Below are positions 1,326 through 22,013 of a stretch of 22,013 bases of DNA, piece after piece; within the stretch, counting starts at the first letter, position 1; the number at the start of each line of letters is the position of its first letter. Both the position numbers and the translations under genes were made by a program. The DNA comes from Candidatus Rokuibacteriota bacterium. GTDB taxonomy: Bacteria > Methylomirabilota > Methylomirabilia > Rokubacteriales > JACPHL01. The stretch is taken from the NCBI GenBank assembly GCA_016188625.1, contig JACPHL010000292.1, positions 1 to 22,013 of the forward strand, in the 5' to 3' direction. The notes under the pieces were generated by a model. It searched no databases. It had not been told where the DNA came from and saw only the letters and a list, made by a program, of their open reading frames with translations.

Positions 1326-1877
1326 ATGTTGGAGATCCGCATCCACGGGCGGGGCGGCCAGGGCGCCCAGGTCGGGTGCCAGATCCTGGCCGAGGCCTTC
1401 TTCCGGGCCGGCCTCTGGGTGCAGGCCTTCGCCGCCTACGGCGGCGAGCGTCGCGGGGCCCCCGTGACCGCCTTTCTCCGGATCGACGACCGGCCGATCC
1501 GCATCCGGTGCGACATCGAGCAGCCGCACCACGCCCTGGTGCTCGACCGGACCCTGCTCGCCGAGCCGGCCCTGACTGGACCCCTTCGGCCCGGCGGCGT
1601 CCTGGTCGTCAACAGCCCCGAGGGTCCGCTCCCCGGGCCGCCCCGGGCCGGGCGCGTGGTGAGGGTGGACGCCACGGCGATCGCGCAGGCGCACGGGCTC
1701 GGCGCGATCGTGGCGACCGCCGTCCTGGGCGCCTTCGCCGGGGCCACGGGGCTGGTCGCCCTCGAGGACCTCCGGGCCGCCGTCGAGCAGGGGAGCCCGG
1801 CGCGAAGGCGCGAGAACGTCGAGGCCTGCGCCGAGGGGTACCTCGCGGCGGCCGGCCTCGCGCGGGTGGGGGCGTAG
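1326..1877 (+). CDS. 2-oxoacid:acceptor oxidoreductase, gamma subunit (PadE-like)
   Basis: This 183-residue protein is the gamma domain of the pyruvate:ferredoxin oxidoreductase superfamily. It opens with the family signature: IRIHGRGGQGAQ (4-15) followed by a helix and the AYGGERRGAPV segment (38-47). In the multi-subunit enzymes this subunit contributes to CoA binding beside the TPP active site. Position 1326 (ATG) is chosen because the family begins within a few residues of the IxIxGxGGQG motif; the frame stays open far upstream, but that sequence is antisense to the hydratase and Arg/Pro/Gly-rich. The ribosome site is only a G-rich stretch. The next gene starts 3 bases after the stop, and all four subunits form one operon. 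Gene order and the partner subunits suggest the phenylglyoxylate-type branch over pyruvate, but specificity cannot be read from sequence. Confidence 0.9.
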   Translation: MLEIRIHGRGGQGAQVGCQILAEAFFRAGLWVQAFAAYGGERRGAPVTAFLRIDDRPIRIRCDIEQPHHALVLDRTLLAEPALTGPLRPGGVLVVNSPEGPLPGPPRAGRVVRVDATAIAQAHGLGAIVATAVLGAFAGATGLVALEDLRAAVEQGSPARRRENVEACAEGYLAAAGLARVGA

Positions 1878-1879
1878 GG

Positions 1880-3526
1880 ATGTCGGTCGACCTCGGCCCC
1901 GCGCGCCCGCTCGGCTGGTCGGAGCCGGGACGCACGACGCTCGAGATCCCCACGGGGGGCTGGCGCACGCGCCGCCCGGTCTACGTCGAGGCCCGAGCCC
2001 CATGCGCGGCCGCCTGCCCCGCGGGGGAGCCCGTGCCCCGCTGGGTGGAGCGCGCCCGGCAGGGCGACTACGCGGGCGCCTGGGCGCTCGTCCGGGAGGC
2101 GAACCCCTTCCCCGCCGTCACCGGACGCGTCTGCGCGCACCCCTGCGAGGCCGCCTGCCACCGCTGGGACCACGACGGCGCCGTGGCGGTCCACGCCCTC
2201 GAACGGTTCGTGGGGGACTGGGGCCTGGCCCACGGGCGTCCCGCGCCGCCGGCCGCGCGGCGGCCCGAGCGCGTCGCGGTGGTCGGCGGCGGACCGGCCG
2301 GCCTGAGCTGCGCCTATCACCTGGGCCGGCTCGGCTACCGGGTCACGGTCTACGAGCGCATGCCCGCGCTCGGCGGCCTCCTCCGCTACGGGATCCCGGC
2401 CTACCGCCTCCCCCGGGCGGTCCTCGACCGCGAGATCGACTCGATCCTCGGGCTCGGCCTGGAGGTGCGCACGGGGACGGCCGTGGGCCGGGACGTCCCC
2501 TGGGAGGCCCTCGACGGCTACGACGCCGTGTTCCTCGCGGTCGGCGCCGGCATCCCGCTGCGGCTCGGGGTCCCCGGGGAGGACCACCCGGCCGTCGGCG
2601 ACGGCCTCGCCTTCCTCCGCGCGGTCAACACCGGGTCCCGCCCGGCCCCGGGCGGCCGCGTGGTGGTGGTCGGCGGCGGCAGCACCGCGATGGACGTCGC
2701 CCGCACCGCCCTGCGGCTCGGGGCCCGCTCGGTGACGGTCCTCGCCCTGGAAGCCCGCGAGGCGATGCCGGCGGCGCCCGACGAGGTGGAGCAGGCGCTC
2801 GCCGAGGGGGTCGAGATCCGGAACGGGGTCGGCGTGCGGGCGTTCGTCGAGAAGGACGGGTGCCTCTGCGGGGTGGAGGTGAGCGCCGCGACGCTCGAGC
2901 AGGCGCCGGACGGGACGGTCCGCCCGGTGTTCCTCCCGGGCCCGAGCGGCATCCTCGAGACCGACACCACTCTGCTGGCGATCGGCCAGCGGCCCGACCC
3001 GGCGTCTCTCGTCGCGGCGGAGGCCGGCGGGGCGGGGGGCCCCGTCCGCTACGCCGGCGGCGACATGGCCTCGGGCTTCCGCACGGTGAGCCACGCCATC
3101 GGCGCCGGGGCGGGCGCGGCCCGCCTGATCCACGCCCGGCTCGCCGGAGTCCCTCCAGAGGCGGCGGCCGATCTCCCGGGGTGGGTCGCCGCGCGGCCGG
3201 CGCACGTGGTCACGCTCGACGAGATCCGCCTCGACGCCTTCCCGCGCGCCCCCCGCTGCCCGCGCCCGCACCGGGCGGCGGCCCGCCCGGCGGGCTTCAC
3301 CGAGGTCGTCCCCGGGCTCGACGAGGCCGCCGCTCGGGAGGAGGCGCGCCGCTGCCTCACCTGCGGCCGGTGCGTGGCCTGCGACGTCTGCCTCCTCGCC
3401 TGCCCCGACATGGCGATCCGCCGGGTGGACGGCGGCTACGCCGTCGCGAGCGAGTACTGCAAGGGGTGCGGGCTCTGCGCCCGGGAGTGCCCGCGGGGCG
3501 CCCTCCAGATGGGGGCCGAGCGATGA
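1880..3526 (+). CDS. Fused FAD/NAD(P) oxidoreductase and 2x[4Fe-4S] ferredoxin subunit of the 2-oxoacid oxidoreductase (PadH+PadF-like)
   Basis: This 548-residue electron-transfer subunit has four parts. Residues ~35-115 are a GltD/dihydropyrimidine-dehydrogenase type [4Fe-4S] domain with C42, C46, C85, C89 and C93. An FAD Rossmann motif GGGPAG lies at 136-141 with the YERMPALGGLLRYGIP segment after it. A second nucleotide-binding motif GGGSTAMDVAR (265-275) fits NAD(P)H. The C-terminus is a bacterial ferredoxin: C498-X2-C501-X2-C504-X3-C508-P and C527-X2-C530-X2-C533-X3-C537-P. In phenylglyoxylate:NAD oxidoreductase these roles are split between PadH and PadF; here they are one chain. The inferred path is TPP site to ferredoxin clusters to FAD to NAD(P)+. 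The alpha gene overlaps its stop codon (ATGA), supporting stoichiometric production. Confidence 0.88.
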   Translation: MSVDLGPARPLGWSEPGRTTLEIPTGGWRTRRPVYVEARAPCAAACPAGEPVPRWVERARQGDYAGAWALVREANPFPAVTGRVCAHPCEAACHRWDHDGAVAVHALERFVGDWGLAHGRPAPPAARRPERVAVVGGGPAGLSCAYHLGRLGYRVTVYERMPALGGLLRYGIPAYRLPRAVLDREIDSILGLGLEVRTGTAVGRDVPWEALDGYDAVFLAVGAGIPLRLGVPGEDHPAVGDGLAFLRAVNTGSRPAPGGRVVVVGGGSTAMDVARTALRLGARSVTVLALEAREAMPAAPDEVEQALAEGVEIRNGVGVRAFVEKDGCLCGVEVSAATLEQAPDGTVRPVFLPGPSGILETDTTLLAIGQRPDPASLVAAEAGGAGGPVRYAGGDMASGFRTVSHAIGAGAGAARLIHARLAGVPPEAAADLPGWVAARPAHVVTLDEIRLDAFPRAPRCPRPHRAAARPAGFTEVVPGLDEAAAREEARRCLTCGRCVACDVCLLACPDMAIRRVDGGYAVASEYCKGCGLCARECPRGALQMGAER

Positions 3527-4710
3527 CCGCGCAGGCGGCCCTGGGCCACCGGCCGACCCGCATGCTCCTGACGGGCGACCACGCCGTCGCGTACGGCGCC
3601 CTCCGGGCGCAGCCGCACGTGATCCCGGTGTACCCCATCACGCCCCAGACGCCCGTCCTGGAGAAGCTCGTGGAGCTCGCCGAGGCGGGGGAGCTGCGCG
3701 GCGACCTGATGACGGTGGAGAGCGAGCACTCGGCGATGGCCGCGTGCATCGCGGCCTCCCTGGCGGGCGCGCGGGTGTTCACGGCGACGGCCTCGCAGGG
3801 CCTGGCCCTCATGCACGAGATGCTCCACTACGCGGCGGGCGCCCGCGCCCCGGTCGTGATGGTCAACGTGAACCGGACCCTCGCCTCGCCGTGGGGCTTC
3901 TGGGCGGACCAGACCGACAGCCTCGCGCAGCGCGACACCGGCTGGATCCAGCTCTACTGCGAGTCGGCCCAGGAGGCGCTCGACACGGTCCTCCACGCCT
4001 TCCGCGTGGCGGAGGCCGTGCTGCTGCCCGCCATGGTGGTCATCGAGGCCGTGTACGTCTCCCACACCCTGGAGCCGGTCGAGGTGCCGGAGCCCGCGCT
4101 GGTGGCCCGGTTCCTGCCCCCGTTCACGCCGACGCTGCGGCTCGACCCCGCCCGGCCGCGGGGCGTCGGCGGGACGGCGACGCCGGCGCAGTGGCGGGGG
4201 AACCGGCTGGCCATGACGGCTGCCATGGACCGCGCCCTCGAGGAGGTCGAGACGGCCGGGCGCCTCTGGGGAGGGCTGACGGGACGGGCTTCCGCCGCGG
4301 CGGAGGCGTACCGCGCCGCCGACGCCGAGGTCCTGCTGGTGACCGCCGGCTCGATCGCCGGGACGGCCCGCGAGGCGGTGGATCGGCTCCGGGAGGAGGG
4401 CATCCCGGCGGGGCTCGTCCGGCTCCGCCTCTTCCGGCCGTTCCCGGCCGGCGAGGTGACGGCGCGCCTGCGCGGCGCCCGGCGGATCGCCGTGCTCGAC
4501 CGCAACTGCTCGGTCGGCAGCGGCGGCATCTTCGCCCAGGAGGTCCGCGCCGCCCTCCAGGTCGCCCTCGACGGCCCCCCGCCCGTGCTCTCCTACCTCC
4601 TCGGGCTCGGCGGGATCAACGTCTCCGTCGAGCGCGTGATCCAGGTCGGGCGCGACGCCCTGCGGCGCCCGCTCCCCTGCCCCGGGCCGATCCTCGAGGA
4701 GGCCCTGTGA
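3523..4710 (+). CDS. 2-oxoacid:acceptor oxidoreductase, alpha subunit (PadG-like)
   Basis: This is the 395-residue alpha subunit of a pyruvate:ferredoxin oxidoreductase-type enzyme. Family landmarks are GDHAVAYGALRA (18-29), YPITPQTP (37-44), VESEHSAMAACIAASLAGARVFTATASQG (65-93), and the block DQTDSLAQRDTGWIQLY further on, which belongs to the half of the active site that contacts TPP and the 2-oxo acid. The C-terminal third is the transketolase-like domain (AEVLLVTAGSIAGTAREAV and a conserved RLFRPFP stretch). Start ATG 3523 overlaps the upstream stop as ATGA; the beta gene overlaps its own stop as GTGA, so translation is coupled. With the beta subunit it would decarboxylate a 2-oxo acid to an acyl-CoA. 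Pyruvate, indolepyruvate and phenylglyoxylate enzymes cannot be told apart with certainty here; the neighbouring PaaK-type ligase favours an aryl substrate. Confidence 0.9.
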   Translation: MTAQAALGHRPTRMLLTGDHAVAYGALRAQPHVIPVYPITPQTPVLEKLVELAEAGELRGDLMTVESEHSAMAACIAASLAGARVFTATASQGLALMHEMLHYAAGARAPVVMVNVNRTLASPWGFWADQTDSLAQRDTGWIQLYCESAQEALDTVLHAFRVAEAVLLPAMVVIEAVYVSHTLEPVEVPEPALVARFLPPFTPTLRLDPARPRGVGGTATPAQWRGNRLAMTAAMDRALEEVETAGRLWGGLTGRASAAAEAYRAADAEVLLVTAGSIAGTAREAVDRLREEGIPAGLVRLRLFRPFPAGEVTARLRGARRIAVLDRNCSVGSGGIFAQEVRAALQVALDGPPPVLSYLLGLGGINVSVERVIQVGRDALRRPLPCPGPILEEAL

Positions 4711-5606
4711 TCGACCGCCTGCTCCCGGGCCACGCCTCCTGCCCCGGCTGCGCCGTGGCCCTGGCCGTCCGCTACGTGCTGCAGGGCCTCCCCGACCGCG
4801 CGGTCCTGGTCGTCCCGCCCTCGTGCATCGCCGTGCTGATGGGGCCGCTCCCGCTCAGCTCGACGACGCTCCCCGTGCTCCAGACCGCCTTCGAGACCGC
4901 CGCCGCGGCGGCCGCCGGCCTCGCGCGGGCCTATCGCGCCCTCGGCGAGGACGTCACGGTGGTCTGCCTGGCCGGGGACGGCGGCACCTACGACATCGGC
5001 CTCCAGGCCCTGTCCGGCGCGGCCGAGCGCGACGAGGACTTCCTGTACGTCTGCTTCGACAACGAGGCGTACCAGAACACGGGAAACCAGAAGTCGTCCG
5101 CCACCCCCTGGGGCGCCCGGACGACGTCGACGCCCCGCGGGAAGACCACGCGGAAGAAGGAGATCGTCGAGATCCTCGCCGCCCACCGGATCCCCTACGC
5201 CGCGACCGCGTCCCCGGCCTACCGCGACGACCTCCTCGCCAAGGTGAGGCGGGCCCTGGGGCTCCACGGCACCCGGTTCCTGAACGTGACGTGCCCCTGC
5301 GTGCCCGGCTGGGGGATCGGCGAGGACGCCTCGCTGCGGGTCGGCCGCCTGGGCGTCGAGTCCCGCGCCGTGCCGCTCTACGAGGTCGAGGACGGCACGC
5401 GGTATCGCATCACGCACCGGCCTGCCGGCATTCCAGTGGGCGACTACCTCCGCGCCCAGTCCCGCTACGCCCACCTGACGGCCGACCAGGTGGCCGCGAT
5501 CCAGGCCGAGGTGGAGCGGCGGTGGGAGGACCTGGTAGAGCGGTGCGAGCGCGTGAACGGCCCGGCCGCCGTGGACCGGGCCGAGGCGCGCGTCCCCGCG
5601 AGCTGA
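4707..5606 (+). CDS. 2-oxoacid:acceptor oxidoreductase, beta subunit, TPP-binding (PadI-like)
   Basis: This 299-residue subunit binds thiamine diphosphate and one [4Fe-4S] cluster. The TPP motif begins at GDGGTYDIG (90-98) and closes with the asparagine of FDNEAYQNTGNQ (117-128). Likely cluster ligands are C12 and C15 (SCPGC), C40 (PSCIA) and one of C196/C198 (TCPCVPGW), the arrangement of PFOR-type beta subunits. The TPWGARTTSTPRGK stretch (133-146) and the tail rich in YEVEDG/YRITHRP are also typical. The GTG start overlaps the alpha stop codon (GTGA) and has GAGGAGG four bases upstream. It completes a gamma-epsilon/delta-alpha-beta operon. No cysteine or TPP residue expected for the family appears to be missing. 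Confidence 0.9.
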   Translation: MIDRLLPGHASCPGCAVALAVRYVLQGLPDRAVLVVPPSCIAVLMGPLPLSSTTLPVLQTAFETAAAAAAGLARAYRALGEDVTVVCLAGDGGTYDIGLQALSGAAERDEDFLYVCFDNEAYQNTGNQKSSATPWGARTTSTPRGKTTRKKEIVEILAAHRIPYAATASPAYRDDLLAKVRRALGLHGTRFLNVTCPCVPGWGIGEDASLRVGRLGVESRAVPLYEVEDGTRYRITHRPAGIPVGDYLRAQSRYAHLTADQVAAIQAEVERRWEDLVERCERVNGPAAVDRAEARVPAS

Positions 5607-5710
5607 TGCAGACGGCCGTCGGGACCCCGTGGGCGCCGGTTCGCGCCGCCCGGCGCGGGACCGCCGCCGCCGGCCCGTCGGCCAACGACGTCATCGGCGT
5701 GCCCCACTGA
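5606..5710 (+). CDS. Possible 34-residue ORF coupled to the beta subunit (doubtful)
   Basis: An ATG overlaps the stop codon of the beta gene (TGATG) and opens a 34-codon frame ending SANDVIGVPH. Almost every third codon position is G or C, as in the real genes here, but in DNA this GC-rich that is weak support. There is no Shine-Dalgarno sequence of its own, so translation would depend on re-initiation. No domain, membrane segment or known family is recognised. It may equally be untranslated spacer before the transporter genes. Confidence 0.2.
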   Translation: MQTAVGTPWAPVRAARRGTAAAGPSANDVIGVPH

Positions 5711-5758
5711 CGCGGGCGCGCCCGGCACGCTGTGCCGCCAGAAAGGAGAGGAGGCGCC

Positions 5759-6952
5759 ATGGACATCCGCAAGCTCGTCCCGGTCGCCCTGCTGCTCGGC
5801 ATCCTGGCTCTAGGGGTGCGCACCGCCTGGGCCCAGGAGTTCCGCATCGGCTTCGTCGCCGCCATCACCGGGCCGGCCTCGAGTCTCGGGGGGCCGGAGC
5901 GGGACGTGGCGGTGATGCTCCAGAAGGAGCTCGACGCCGCGGGCGGGCTCCCGGGGCCCGACGGCAGGAAGCGCACCGTCAAGATCATCATCCACGACGA
6001 CCAGTCCAAGGCCGACGAGACCGTCAAGGCCGTCAAGAAGCTCATCGCCGACGACAAGGTGCACGCCGTCATCGCCTCCAGCCAGAGCCCGACGAGCCTC
6101 GCGGTCATCCCCATCGTCACCGAGGCCCGGGTGCCCCTGATCTCCATGGCCTCGAGCCACGCCATCGTCACGCCCGTCAAGGACCGCTACTGGGTCTTCA
6201 AGACGCCCCAGTCGAACATCCACGTGGCCGTCCACCAGGTGGGGTACCTCAAGGCCAAGGGGGTCAAGAAGATCGCCAGCCTGTACGTCAACGACGCCTT
6301 CGGGGAGGACTCGCGCCGCGGCCTCGCGGAGATGCTCAAGGGCACGGGCATCGAGGCCGTCTACGAGGACAAGTTCGAGCACGCCGACAAGGACATGACG
6401 CCCCAGCTCACCCGGGTCCGCGCCAGCGGCGCCGAGGTCCTGATCGTCCACGCGATCCCGCCCTCGGCGTCCATCATCACCAAGAACTTCCGCGACCTGG
6501 GGCTCCCGATCCCCCTCATCCACAACCACGGCGTCGGGAACAAGCCCTTCATCGACCTCGCGGGCGGCGCGGCCGAGGGGGTGATCTTCCCCATCGGCAA
6601 GATGCTGGTGGCCGAGGAGCTGCCGGCCGCCGATCCCCAGAAGAAGGCGCTGCTGGACTTCATCGCCTGGTACGAGAAGGGCACCGGCAAGCCGCGGAGC
6701 ACCTTCGCCGGCCACGGCTGGGACGCGCTCCAGATGCTCTTCCCCATCCTGGCCAGCCTCCCGCCCGACCTCCCGCTGGAGCAGGCGCGGGTCCGGATCC
6801 GTGACGGGCTGGAGCAGACCCGGAACTTCGTGGGCACCGGCGGGATCTTCACCATGTCCGCCGAGGACCACGTCGGGCTGGACGAGCGCTCCATGGTGCT
6901 CGTCCGCATCGAGGGCGGCAAGTGGAAGTACTTCCCGCGCGAGAAGTGGTAA
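5759..6952 (+). CDS. ABC transporter substrate-binding protein, branched-chain amino acid/aromatic acid type (LivJ-like)
   Basis: This is a 397-residue periplasmic binding protein of the Peripla_BP_6 (Leu/Ile/Val-binding) family. A signal peptide is clear: basic MDIRK, a hydrophobic core at about 6-22 and an AWA/QEF cleavage site after residue 25. The mature protein begins FRIGFVAAITGPASSLGG, the family's usual first strand and ligand loop, and contains PLISMASSHAI and YVNDAFGEDSRRG segments typical of the two lobes. The ATG at 5759 is chosen because AGGAGAGGAGG lies just upstream; an in-frame GTG at 5732 has no such site and would spoil the signal peptide. It starts the transporter gene set. 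Relatives bind amino acids but also benzoate, phenylpropanoids and other acids, so the aromatic-acid role is inferred only from the neighbours. Confidence 0.92.
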   Translation: MDIRKLVPVALLLGILALGVRTAWAQEFRIGFVAAITGPASSLGGPERDVAVMLQKELDAAGGLPGPDGRKRTVKIIIHDDQSKADETVKAVKKLIADDKVHAVIASSQSPTSLAVIPIVTEARVPLISMASSHAIVTPVKDRYWVFKTPQSNIHVAVHQVGYLKAKGVKKIASLYVNDAFGEDSRRGLAEMLKGTGIEAVYEDKFEHADKDMTPQLTRVRASGAEVLIVHAIPPSASIITKNFRDLGLPIPLIHNHGVGNKPFIDLAGGAAEGVIFPIGKMLVAEELPAADPQKKALLDFIAWYEKGTGKPRSTFAGHGWDALQMLFPILASLPPDLPLEQARVRIRDGLEQTRNFVGTGGIFTMSAEDHVGLDERSMVLVRIEGGKWKYFPREKW

Positions 6953-6953
6953 C

Positions 6954-7841
6954 GTGGCCGGTCCCGAGCAGCTGCTCCAGCTGGTCCTGGTGGGGCTCAC
7001 CCAGGGGGCCATCTACGCCCTGATCGCCCTGGGCTTCGTCACCATCTACAACGTGACGGGCGTCATCAACTTCGCCCAGGGCGAGTTCGCCATGCTCGGG
7101 GCCATGCTCATGGTCTCGCTGGCGCCGCTGGGGTTGCCGACGCCGGCGGCGTTCTTCCTGGCGGTGGCGGGGGTGGTGGTGGTGGGCGGGGGGGTCGAGC
7201 GGCTGGCGATCCACCCCGCCCGCCGGGCCTCCGTCGTCACCCTGATCATCATCACCATCGGGGCCGACATCGTCCTGCGCGGCCTGGCCCTGCTCGCGTG
7301 GGGCACCGACCCCCTGCCGCTCGCCCCGTTCTCGGCCGGGCCGCCGCTCACCTTCGGCGGGGCCTTCATCACCCGGCAGGCGCTCTGGATCCTGGGGACG
7401 ACCGCCGTCACCCTGGCGGCGCTCTACGCCTTCTTCGAGTACACCTACCCCGGCAAGACCGTCCGCGCCTGCGCCATCAACCGGCTCGCCGCCCGGCTCA
7501 GCGGGATCTCCCCCGAGCGCATGTCGCTCCTGGCCTTCTGCCTCGCCGCCGCCCTGGGAGGGGTCGGCGGGGTGGTCATCGCCCCCCTGACGCTGGTCTC
7601 CTATGACATGGGGCTGTACCTCGGGCTTCGCGGCTTCGTCGCAGCCGTCATGGGAGGCCTGGTGAGCGCGCCGGGGGCCGTGGCCGGGGCGCTGCTCCTC
7701 GGGATCCTCGAGGCCCTCGTCGCGGGGATCTGGAAGGCCGCCTACAAGGAGGCGGCCGCCTTCCTCGTCCTCTTCGTGATCCTCCTGCTCCGGCCCCAGG
7801 GGCTCTTCACCCGGGCCGTCGCGCGCCAGGCGGGGCTGTGA
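6954..7841 (+). CDS. livH: Branched-chain-type ABC transporter permease (LivH-like)
   Basis: This is a 295-residue inner-membrane permease of the LivH family. The hallmark N-terminus is present (GLTQGAIYALIALGFVTIYNVTGVINFAQGEF, about 14-45), followed by several long hydrophobic segments (roughly 47-85, 94-116, 145-161, 191-213, 226-256 and 265-280). The cytoplasmic coupling loop toward the ATPases is around 168-186 (GKTVRACAINRLAARLSGI). GTG at 6954 starts one base after the livJ-like stop; its ribosome site is weak, so translation may depend on the upstream gene. The end overlaps the livM start as GTGA. Length and motifs are normal, with no sign of damage, unlike livG further on. Confidence 0.92.
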   Translation: MAGPEQLLQLVLVGLTQGAIYALIALGFVTIYNVTGVINFAQGEFAMLGAMLMVSLAPLGLPTPAAFFLAVAGVVVVGGGVERLAIHPARRASVVTLIIITIGADIVLRGLALLAWGTDPLPLAPFSAGPPLTFGGAFITRQALWILGTTAVTLAALYAFFEYTYPGKTVRACAINRLAARLSGISPERMSLLAFCLAAALGGVGGVVIAPLTLVSYDMGLYLGLRGFVAAVMGGLVSAPGAVAGALLLGILEALVAGIWKAAYKEAAAFLVLFVILLLRPQGLFTRAVARQAGL

Positions 7842-8833
7842 GGCCCGGCGGGGACACGCTCGCGCTCGCGGGTCTCGGGCTGGGGGTGGCGCTCGTGCCG
7901 CTGGGCGTCACCAGCCAGTACCACCTCAGCATCGGCGTCTTCATCGGCATCCACGCCATCGTCACCATCGGCCTCTGCCTCGTCATGGGCTACGCGGGCC
8001 AGATCTCGCTCGGCCACGCCGCGTTCTACGGGCTCGGCGCGTACGCGTCGGGGCTCCTCACGACCAAGCTCGGCGCGAACCCGTGGGCGGCCATGGCGGG
8101 GGCGATGGCGCTGACCGCGGGGGTCGCCTACGCGCTCGGGCGGCCCATCCTGCGCCTCCGCGGCCACTACCTCGCCATGGCGACCCTGGCGTTCGGGATC
8201 ATCGCCTACCTGGCCTTCGTCGAGTTCACGGAGCTGACCGGCGGGCCCTCCGGACTCGCGGGCATCCCCCGGCTCCGGGTGGGGGGCTTCGTGTTCGACA
8301 CCGACCGGAAGTTCTTCTACCTCACGTGGGGCGGGGTCATCGCGGTCGTGGCCCTCTCGTTGAACGTCGTCAACTCGCGGGTCGGGCGCGCCCTGCGCGC
8401 CATCCACGGGAGCGAGGTGGCGGCCGAGACGCTCGGGGTGGACACCGCGGCGTACAAGCTCAGGGTCTTCACCCTGAGCGCCGTCTACGCCGCGCTGGCC
8501 GGGAGCCTGTACGCCCACTACCTGAGCTTCGTGAGCCCGCCGACCTTCGGCTTCATCGCCTCGGTGGAGTTCGTGGTGATGGCGGCGGTGGGCGGGCTGG
8601 CCAGCGTCTGGGGCGCGCCCTTCGGCGCCGCCACGGTGACCCTGCTGACGGAGGTGATCCGCGACGTGATGCCGCGGCTCCTCGCGTACGCCTCGGGGGA
8701 GCACGAGGTCATCGCCTACGGGCTGCTGCTCATCCTGATCATGATCTTCGTCCCCGAAGGACTCACGGTCGGCGGGCTCCGCGCGCTCCGCCGGCTCGGG
8801 AGGGCGGGGCGCCGTGTCCCCGCCGCTCCTTGA
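7838..8833 (+). CDS. livM: Branched-chain-type ABC transporter permease (LivM-like)
   Basis: This 331-residue protein is the second permease of the pair. It carries the LivM signature GYAGQISLGHAAFYGLGAY (51-69), many hydrophobic segments and the coupling-loop sequence GRALRAIHGSEVAAETLGVD in the middle of the protein. The C-terminus ends after LLLILIMIFVPEGL, as is usual. The start GTG overlaps the livH stop (GTGA). Its last 20 bases overlap the beginning of the livG reading frame, another sign of a single transcript. It would pair with LivH to form the membrane channel. No anomalies were seen. Confidence 0.92.
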   Translation: MRPGGDTLALAGLGLGVALVPLGVTSQYHLSIGVFIGIHAIVTIGLCLVMGYAGQISLGHAAFYGLGAYASGLLTTKLGANPWAAMAGAMALTAGVAYALGRPILRLRGHYLAMATLAFGIIAYLAFVEFTELTGGPSGLAGIPRLRVGGFVFDTDRKFFYLTWGGVIAVVALSLNVVNSRVGRALRAIHGSEVAAETLGVDTAAYKLRVFTLSAVYAALAGSLYAHYLSFVSPPTFGFIASVEFVVMAAVGGLASVWGAPFGAATVTLLTEVIRDVMPRLLAYASGEHEVIAYGLLLILIMIFVPEGLTVGGLRALRRLGRAGRRVPAAP

Positions 8834-9367
8834 GGCGCGCGACGTCCGGAAGGAGTTCGGCGGCGTCGTCGCGGTCGGCGGCGCCAGCCTCCGGGTCTCC
8901 CCGGGGGAGATCCGGGCGATCATCGGCCCCAACGGCGCCGGGAAGACGACCCTCTTCAACCTGATCAGCGGGCTCCTCGCCCTGGACGGCGGCGAGATCC
9001 GCTTCCGCGGGCGCCTCCTGAACGGCCTCCCGCCCGCGGCCCGGGCGATGGAGCCCTCGCTGCTCCTCGTGGACGAGCCCGCGCCCGCGCCCTGGCGATG
9101 GAGCCCTCGCTGCTCCTCGTGGACGAGCCCGCGACCGGCCTGAACCCGGCGGAGGTCGCCCGGCTGTCGGAGCTGATCCGCGCCATCCGCCAGCGCGGGA
9201 CCACCGTCCTGCTCGTCGAGCACCACATGGACCTCGTCATGGGGACCGCCGAGTCGATCCTCGTCCTCAACTACGGGCAGGTGCTGGCCGAGGGGACGCC
9301 CGAGACGGTCCGGAACGACCCCGCGGTCATCGCCGCCTACCTCGGCGCCGAGGACGACGATGCTTGA
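8814..9367 (+). pseudogene. livG: Broken LivG-type ABC transporter ATPase: internal deletion, partial duplication and frameshift
   Basis: The gene begins normally at GTG 8814 (AGGGCGGGG upstream): a LivG N-terminus with Walker A GPNGAGKTT at residues 38-46. After GLPPAARA (residue 78) the sequence jumps directly to MEPSLLLVDEPA, the Walker B region, so the Q-loop, the helical domain and the LSGGQ-type signature are absent. The Walker B segment is then repeated 50 bases later, which shifts the frame; the first frame stops at 9143. The second copy continues in another frame as ATGLNPAEV...LLVEHHMDLVM... to a stop at 9365-9367, the normal LivG C-terminus with its H-loop. The two parts sum to about 167 residues, against about 250 in the family. 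Either the gene is truly inactivated or the assembly is wrong here. livF overlaps its end. Confidence 0.85.
9044..9133 (+). repeat. 40-bp direct repeat at the livG breakpoint
   Basis: Bases 9044-9083 and 9094-9133 are identical over 40 positions (GGCGATGGAG...GAGCCCGCG) and separated by 10 bases. The copy encodes the Walker B segment of LivG. The 10-base spacer plus the second copy reads R-A-L-A-M-E-P in the native frame, so the second copy is in its natural place and the first is the extra, displaced one. The 50-base period is not a multiple of three, so it breaks the frame. Confidence 0.9.
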
Positions 9368-10076
9368 GGTGGCCGACCTCGCCGTGGCCTACGGCGCGAT
9401 CCAGGCCCTCCGGGGCGTGAGCCTCAAGGTGCGGGAGGGCAGCGTGGTCTGCCTCATCGGCGCCAACGGGGCCGGCAAGACCACCATGCTCCGGGCGATC
9501 TCCGGGCTCCTGCCGATCCAGCGGGGACGCATCCGGCTGGAGGGCCGGGACATCACCGGCCTCCCGGCCGAGACGATCGTCCGCCTCGGGATCTCGCACG
9601 TGCCGGAGGGCCGACAGAACTTCACCGCGCTCACCGTGCGCGACAACCTGCTCGTCGGCGCGTACCCGGTCCACCGGCGCGCGGGGCGCGGGGCGATCGA
9701 GGCCGCGATGGCGCGGGTGTACCAGCTCTTCCCGATCCTCCGGGAGCGCCAGCGCCAGCTCGCGGGCAGCCTCTCGGGGGGCGAGCAGCAGATGCTCGCC
9801 ATCGGCCGGGTGCTCATGGCCCGGCCGCGGCTCGTGCTCCTGGACGAGCCGTCCATGGGGCTGGCCCCGGTCCTGGCGCGGGAGATCCTGCGGCGGATCC
9901 GGCAGCTGGCTGGGGAGGGCACCACGGTCCTCCTGGTCGAGCAGAACGCGCGGGCGGCCCTCCGGATCGCCGACTACGGGTACGTCGTGGAGAACGGCCG
10001 GATCGCCCTGGAGGGGAAGGCCCGGGACCTGGCCGAGGACGAGGAGGTCAAGCGCGCCTACCTGGGTCGGGTCTGA
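9360..10076 (+). CDS. livF: Branched-chain-type ABC transporter ATPase (LivF-like)
   Basis: This 238-residue ATPase is complete. Walker A is GANGAGKT (34-41), the Q-loop lies in PEGRQNF (82-88), the signature is LSGGE (138-142) and Walker B is LVLLDEP (158-164). The usual H-loop histidine is a glutamine (LLVEQNA), which is normal for LivF. ATG 9360 overlaps the end of the livG C-terminal frame by 8 bases. In these transporters LivF pairs with LivG as a heterodimer; since livG is broken, the complex would need a LivF homodimer or a LivG from elsewhere in the genome. Confidence 0.92.
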   Translation: MLEVADLAVAYGAIQALRGVSLKVREGSVVCLIGANGAGKTTMLRAISGLLPIQRGRIRLEGRDITGLPAETIVRLGISHVPEGRQNFTALTVRDNLLVGAYPVHRRAGRGAIEAAMARVYQLFPILRERQRQLAGSLSGGEQQMLAIGRVLMARPRLVLLDEPSMGLAPVLAREILRRIRQLAGEGTTVLLVEQNARAALRIADYGYVVENGRIALEGKARDLAEDEEVKRAYLGRV

Positions 10077-10130
10077 GCCCGGAGACCCCGTGTCGCGCGA
10101 CGAGGATCCGCACTTCCCATGGAGGCGGTC

Positions 10131-11453
10131 ATGAACGACGCGCTCGCCACCGCTGTCGCCGTCGAACGAGCGCCGCGCGCCCGGGTCGAGCAGCTCCAGC
10201 TCGAGCGGGTGCGTCGCGTCATCGCCCTGATCTCGGAGCGGGTGCCGCTGTACCGCGAGCGCCTGGGCCGGGCGGGCGTCCGGGCGGAGGACGTCCGCTC
10301 GCTCGCCGATCTCCGGGGCCTGCCCTTCACGACCAAGGCCGACTTCCGCGACACGTACCCGTTCGGCATGCTCGCGGCCCCGCTGGAGGACGTGGTCCGG
10401 ATCCACGCCTCCTCGGGGACCACCGGCAAGCCGACCGTCGTGGCGTACACGCGGCGGGACCTGGACGTCTGGACGGAGGTGATGGCGCGGACCCTGCTCG
10501 CCGGCGGGGTCGGCCGCGCCGACGTCGTCCACAACGCCTACGGCTACGGCCTCTTCACCGGCGGGCTCGGGTTCCACTACGGGGCGGAACGCCTCGGGGC
10601 CGCCGTCGTCCCGATCTCCGGCGGCCTCACGGAGCGCCAGATCACGGCCCTTCGGGACTTCGGCGCCACCGTGCTCTGCTGCACGCCCTCGTACAGCCTC
10701 CACCTGGCGGAGGAGGCGGGGCTGACCTCGAAGGACCTCAAGCTGCGGGTCGGCTTTTTCGGCGCCGAGCCGTGGACCGAGGGCATGCGCCAGGCGATCG
10801 AGAGCCGCCTCCACCTGATGGCGCTCAACATCTACGGGCTCTCGGAGGTCATCGGGCCGGGGGTGTCGGTGGAGTGCCCCGAGCGCCGGGGGATGCACGT
10901 CGCTGAGGACCACTTCCTGCCCGAGATCGTCGATCCGGTGACGCTTCAGCCCACGCCGCCCGGCCTGACCGGCGAGCTGGTGCTCACGACGCTCACGAAG
11001 GAGGCCCTCCCGCTGCTGCGCTACCGGACCCGGGACCTCACCGCGCTGGACCCCGGCCCCTGCGCGTGCGGCCGCACCTTCGTCCGCATCGGGCGGATCG
11101 TGGGGCGCAGCGACGACATGCTGATCATCCGCGGCGTCAACGTCTACCCCTCCCAGATCGAGCACGCCCTCACGCAGATCCCCGACCTCGAGCCCCACTA
11201 CCTCCTCGTCCTCCGCCGGGAGCGCGCCCTCGACACCATCGAGGTGCGCGTCGAGTGCCGCGCGGAGACGGCGGCCGCGGGCGAGGCGGCCCTGGGCGCC
11301 CTCGCGACCCGGGCGCAGCGCCGGATCCTCGAGGTCGTCGGCCTCACCGCAGAGGTCGCCGTCGTGCCCCCGAAGACGATCGAGCGCAGCGTCGGGAAGG
11401 CCAAGCGGATCCTCGACCTGCGCGCGGAGGGCGAAGGGGCGCGAAACTCCTGA
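10131..11453 (+). CDS. paaK: Phenylacetate-CoA ligase family AMP-forming enzyme (PaaK/PadJ-like)
   Basis: This 440-residue adenylate-forming enzyme has the size of PaaK. The P-loop is ASSGTTGKP (93-101), followed by GAEPWTE (211-217), NIYGLSEV (233-240), HVAEDHFLPEI (256-266) and the RTRD hinge region (299-302). The C-terminal lid has GRSDDMLIIRGVNVYP (325-340) and a lysine-rich end. It activates an aryl acid with ATP and CoA, classically phenylacetate to phenylacetyl-CoA. ATG 10131 is preferred because GGAGG lies six bases upstream; an in-frame ATG at 10119 has no ribosome site. It follows livF by 54 bases without a terminator and probably belongs to the same transcript. The acid actually used (phenylacetate, indoleacetate, benzoate-like) cannot be read from sequence. 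Confidence 0.88.
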   Translation: MNDALATAVAVERAPRARVEQLQLERVRRVIALISERVPLYRERLGRAGVRAEDVRSLADLRGLPFTTKADFRDTYPFGMLAAPLEDVVRIHASSGTTGKPTVVAYTRRDLDVWTEVMARTLLAGGVGRADVVHNAYGYGLFTGGLGFHYGAERLGAAVVPISGGLTERQITALRDFGATVLCCTPSYSLHLAEEAGLTSKDLKLRVGFFGAEPWTEGMRQAIESRLHLMALNIYGLSEVIGPGVSVECPERRGMHVAEDHFLPEIVDPVTLQPTPPGLTGELVLTTLTKEALPLLRYRTRDLTALDPGPCACGRTFVRIGRIVGRSDDMLIIRGVNVYPSQIEHALTQIPDLEPHYLLVLRRERALDTIEVRVECRAETAAAGEAALGALATRAQRRILEVVGLTAEVAVVPPKTIERSVGKAKRILDLRAEGEGARNS

Positions 11454-21840: not shown

Positions 21841-22013
21841 GAACAATTTTCCCCGTCTCCAAGGGCTGACGCCTGTCGCCGGTCCCGTACGCCCGGCGCC
21901 CCCAGGGAGACCTCGGCCCCGAGCGGCACGTTAAGCGGAACGGCGCGGGTCCCCGCCGTGAGCGAGCCGGGTGGGGAAGCCGGCTCGCGGGCGGAACACG
22001 ACCAGGAGGGGCC
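21841..22013. other. Structured non-coding right edge; possible leader of a plus-strand gene beyond the window
   Basis: No complete gene is seen. Two GC-rich hairpins lie in tandem: CGGCG/CGCCG (21941-21945 with 21954-21958) and a perfect 9-base stem GCGAGCCGG/CCGGCTCGC (21962-21970 with 21980-21988). AGGAGG at 22003-22008 could be a ribosome site for a plus-strand gene starting just past the edge. A GTG at 21958 also opens a frame to the edge. The order TTAAGCGGAA, GGGTCCCCGCCGTGA, GGGGAAGCC, ACCAGGAGG loosely recalls the core of a cobalamin riboswitch, but the match is partial and key segments look shortened. Confidence 0.3.

Follow-up and report, generated by a model that had tools for sequence, protein, structure and literature searches.

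An interrupted livG in a Rokubacteriales draft genome is probably a local assembly error

Microhomology-mediated deletion with templated tandem duplication leaves short homologies at its joins, together with a short duplicated stretch. Damage of a different origin has been described in metagenome-assembled genomes (MAGs), in which gaps have been placed between flanks that in fact overlap, so that sequence is left in duplicate, and in which local assembly errors yield wrong protein-coding sequences (Chen et al. 2020, PMC7111523). Here we compare these types of damage with a defective livG gene in the window, a stretch of 22,013 nucleotides that constitutes the complete contig G000:C99 of a Candidatus Rokuibacteriota draft genome obtained from mixed environmental DNA (2.60 Mb in 344 contigs, 84% complete).

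The gene resembles LivG, the ATPase with Pfam domains PF00005 and PF12399, in its position within a livK-livH-livM-livG-livF operon and in its Walker A, Walker B, H-loop and BCA_ABC_TP_C regions, whereas the assembled version differs from LivG in lacking the Q-loop and signature motif and in being out of frame. An earlier note on this DNA had described livG (8814-9367) as reduced to a Walker A half and a Walker B/H-loop half without the central ATPase region, and our analysis bears this out. The 5' part (8814..9047, + strand, as are all features given here) starts with GTG at 8814 and remains in frame until the deletion join. Its frame (8814-9143) carries the Walker A motif GxxGxGKT as GPNGAGKT, covers only profile positions 3-50 of Pfam ABC_tran, and is truncated to 109 amino acids by a premature TGA (9141..9143), which is reached via the frame shift of a 50-nt duplication. 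The 3' part (9098..9367) is open in a different frame and encodes Walker B, the D-loop, the H-loop and the branched-chain amino acid ABC C-terminal domain, as seen in the motifs LLLVDEP and VEHHMDLV and a match to PF12399 in 9098-9364 (E 3e-14). The Q-loop and the LxxGxQ signature, represented by ARTFQ and LPFGQQ, are missing as part of 91 lost codons, and a single continuous livG frame of about 255-260 codons is absent; Walker A and Walker B lie 136 codons apart in the orthologue of the relative G025 and in three others. Of the remaining liv genes, all described earlier as apparently intact, livM and livF are confirmed as such: the permease gene livM (7838..8833) encodes BPD_transp_2 at residues 32-301, the second ATPase gene, livF (9360..10076), matches ABC_tran over its full length, and whole Pfam domains are recovered in livK, livM and livF. 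Across window positions 1370-11453, the liv operon lies between ORFs resembling subunits of a 2-oxoacid:acceptor oxidoreductase and a phenylacetate-CoA-ligase-like gene, all named by eye from translations; these neighbours suggest that the region may serve to take up and degrade aromatic or branched acids. No Rfam families or tRNAs were found within the window.

Codon comparison with the orthologous loci L010-L013 places the deletion join at 9043..9048, where the livG frame passes straight into the stretch immediately preceding Walker B. The segment absent relative to the orthologues measures 273 nt, or 91 codons, close to the 80-90 residues and 250-330 bases estimated earlier, and corresponds to LGIARTFQ...SLPFGQQRLLEIARAL in the G025:C198 orthologue (L010). 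The Walker B stretch is present twice, in 49/50-nt tandem copies at 9039..9087 and 9089..9137, whose exact cores (9044-9083 and 9094-9133) confirm the frame-shifting 40-bp direct repeat of 50-bp period reported in the earlier note. This exact 40-nt match with a 50-nt spacing, in the top-scoring tandem repeat of the window (TRF score 193), is not due to chance. The net change against L010 is -223 nt, with 273 nt lost and 50 nt gained; since the 273-nt deletion alone would be frame-neutral, it is the 50-nt duplication that shifts and thereby destroys the frame. The same note had offered a repeat-mediated rearrangement as one of two readings, and a simple repeat-mediated collapse does not account for the site: the only bases exactly common to both sides of the join are GGCG (4 nt, 9044-9047), accompanied by the imperfect homology GCCCGGGCG/GCCCTGGCG, and the 50-nt repeat was created by the join and is no older repeat at which recombination took place. 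A programmed frameshift or a split gene was rejected as an interpretation, as the catalytic middle of livG is missing.

Short homologies at a join and a short duplicated stretch are what livG shares with microhomology-mediated deletion and templated duplication. They speak for a real and recent inactivation, by which one complex replication event, with template switching at short homologies, would have removed 273 nt and duplicated 50 nt in tandem, leaving livG dead in the lineage. A natural pseudogene might be recognized by relaxed constraint or by extra lesions in its remnants. Neither was observed. The two livG halves are 75% and 70% identical at the amino acid level to the G025 orthologue, whereas livM reaches 80% and livF 82%. 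For the two halves, dN/dS values relative to G025 (0.22 for the 5' and 0.30 for the 3' part) are close to those of livM (0.20) and livF (0.19), with no other lesion in either half. The gene has therefore either been released from normal constraint only very recently or remains subject to it. The absence of decay would be equally expected of a very recent real event, with which the undecayed remnants are compatible. About a dozen places in the bin encode related ABC ATPases, so that loss of livG might be tolerated.

Full-length livG is found in all five orthologous operons examined in related bacteria (G025, G037, G019, G039 and L039), a comparison that the earlier note had proposed; the lesion is not inherited from relatives. 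A scan of the genome's contigs, which may omit the window's own record, yielded only paralogues as candidates for a second livG copy (at most 84% identity over about 100 nt). The missing middle segment was likewise not found elsewhere in the bin, with 32-59% amino acid identity over longer stretches and a best short match of 73% over 26 residues at C334. We also rejected a chimera of two different operons, as the 5' and 3' halves lie at a similar distance from one and the same orthologue, that of G025.

Comparable lesions occur elsewhere in the draft. We surveyed 741 kb of its non-masked sequence (about 29% of the genome), plus the window, and 544 kb from three relatives for short direct repeats, counting adjacent tandem duplications with a period not divisible by three and repeats roughly as long as the period. 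Five such duplications, all inside genes and with periods of 47, 50, 50, 68 and 76, were recovered in the draft including the window, and none inside genes in the 544 kb of the relatives, where most short repeats keep the frame or are not adjacent. Taken alone, this enrichment of 5 versus 0 is weak (p about 0.06). Besides livG (9039-9137 in the window, period 50), the duplications affect argF (L118=C95, 1433-1569, period 68, with SNPs between the copies), a tctA-like gene (L131=C228, 12048-12195, period 76), a histidine kinase gene (L195=C33, 3395-3492, period 50) and a HEAT-repeat gene (L100=C18, 5228-5320, period 47), the latter four names being judged from translations without a family search. 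Against its orthologue, argF shows a plain 68-nt insertion, and no other copy was found in the 84%-complete bin. The tctA-like and histidine kinase duplications are likely to be simple insertions as well, since two frames read on through the copies; the HEAT-repeat gene had no match among four relatives. In each of the four non-livG duplications the copies differ at 1-3 positions while the remaining gene is open; five of the nine differences fall at third codon positions, and the true frame gains no stop. SNP-bearing copies in otherwise open genes resemble two strain alleles, unlike a decaying pseudogene, and would be expected had the contig ends of two strains been joined.

A second survey, for frame breaks, used filtered ORFs and tblastn with the proteins of relatives as comparison. 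It revealed a 22-nt frame-shifting deletion, relative to these relatives, in the catalytic domain of metG (L129:14549-16407, G000:C226). Methionyl-tRNA synthetase, the metG product, is needed by a living cell and normally indispensable, and no second metG was found in the bin, which holds the broken copy alone. Because the cell needs this enzyme, an assembly error is the best reading of the broken metG; the part of the genome missing from the 84%-complete MAG could contain a further copy of metG or argF. On the same contig as metG, a D-aminoacylase-like gene (L129:3986-5520) has about 36 codons swapped for an unrelated stretch, with a change of frame, and the origin of this foreign stretch was not found in the sampled sequence.

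The scaffold gaps in the draft comprise 5-41 N. One of them, a 26-N gap at L200:4582-4607, lies between GGCGAAACCCATCGAG and GGCGAAGCCCATTGAG, which are synonymous variants that both represent the start of one acyl-carrier-protein-like gene. Such flanks point directly to a mixture of strains in the assembly. As a separate observation, the contig end at window positions 21905-22013 is formed by a dispersed repeat, 110 nt or more in length, with 23 matches in the sampled draft including the window's own, most at 82-94% identity; eight of these lie at most 250 nt from a contig end, and none occurs in the 544 kb of relatives. This repeat may represent a family of the lineage similar to MITEs or REPs, at which the assembly breaks.

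These findings bear differently on the alternatives. Similar lesions in argF and metG, genes whose inactivation in a living cell is improbable, and strain-variant duplicates on both sides of a scaffold gap argue against a real inactivation of livG, which we regard as unlikely; similar damage to essential genes of the draft also sets the lesion apart from microhomology-mediated events and makes a cellular origin unlikely. The SNPs between copies at other sites, in suggesting a strain mixture, would also suit a minor variant, in which the deleted livG is present in some of the cells and the assembler happened to follow that path, but the same choice of minor dead alleles would have had to be repeated for metG, argF and others, and we consider this highly improbable. 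Least credible of all is a lineage with frequent short tandem duplications and microhomology deletions in its genes, in which livG, argF and metG are truly altered and either dispensable or somehow restored.

The earlier note had left fresh inactivation and misassembly side by side without choosing. Lesions of similar type in argF, the tctA-like gene, the histidine kinase gene, the HEAT-repeat gene and metG, together with the gap with duplicated flanks, now favor misassembly and render fresh inactivation less likely. The normal constraint on both livG halves and the intact livG of the five orthologous operons count on the same side. The livG site is not special, similar lesions being spread across the draft, and it is this that decides for the misassembly reading. 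We infer that the site was made by the same process as the others and that the true gene is whole. With a probability of roughly 85%, we interpret the livG lesion as an error of local assembly in a draft that combines closely related strains. During assembly or scaffolding, contig ends would have been fused within livG, and this fusion would have dropped 273 nt and retained an overlapping stretch twice, giving the adjacent 50-nt duplication. The draft shares with the MAG assembly and scaffolding errors of PMC7111523 the duplicate sequence at joined overlapping flanks, the broken genes and the small N gaps with duplicated flanks; it differs in that livG also shows a 273-nt loss with only 4 nt shared at the join. 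Certain observations weigh against misassembly: plain fusion of overlapping contig ends does not account for a deletion join with 4-nt homology, the two livG copies contain no strain SNPs within their 40 exact bases, and the duplication count alone gives only the weak p value stated above. As the metG deletion shows, sequence has also been lost in this draft where the joined ends have no clear homology.

Read literally, the draft would suggest that the organism has lost a transporter, arginine synthesis (argF) and an essential tRNA synthetase (metG). Claims of gene loss from this MAG and from similar uncurated drafts need to be screened for short adjacent duplications that shift the frame; an ordinary repeat finder picks these up within seconds. 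The livG finding is a signal of data quality and no new biology, useful as an annotation warning; a normal, full-length livG is probably present in the organism itself.
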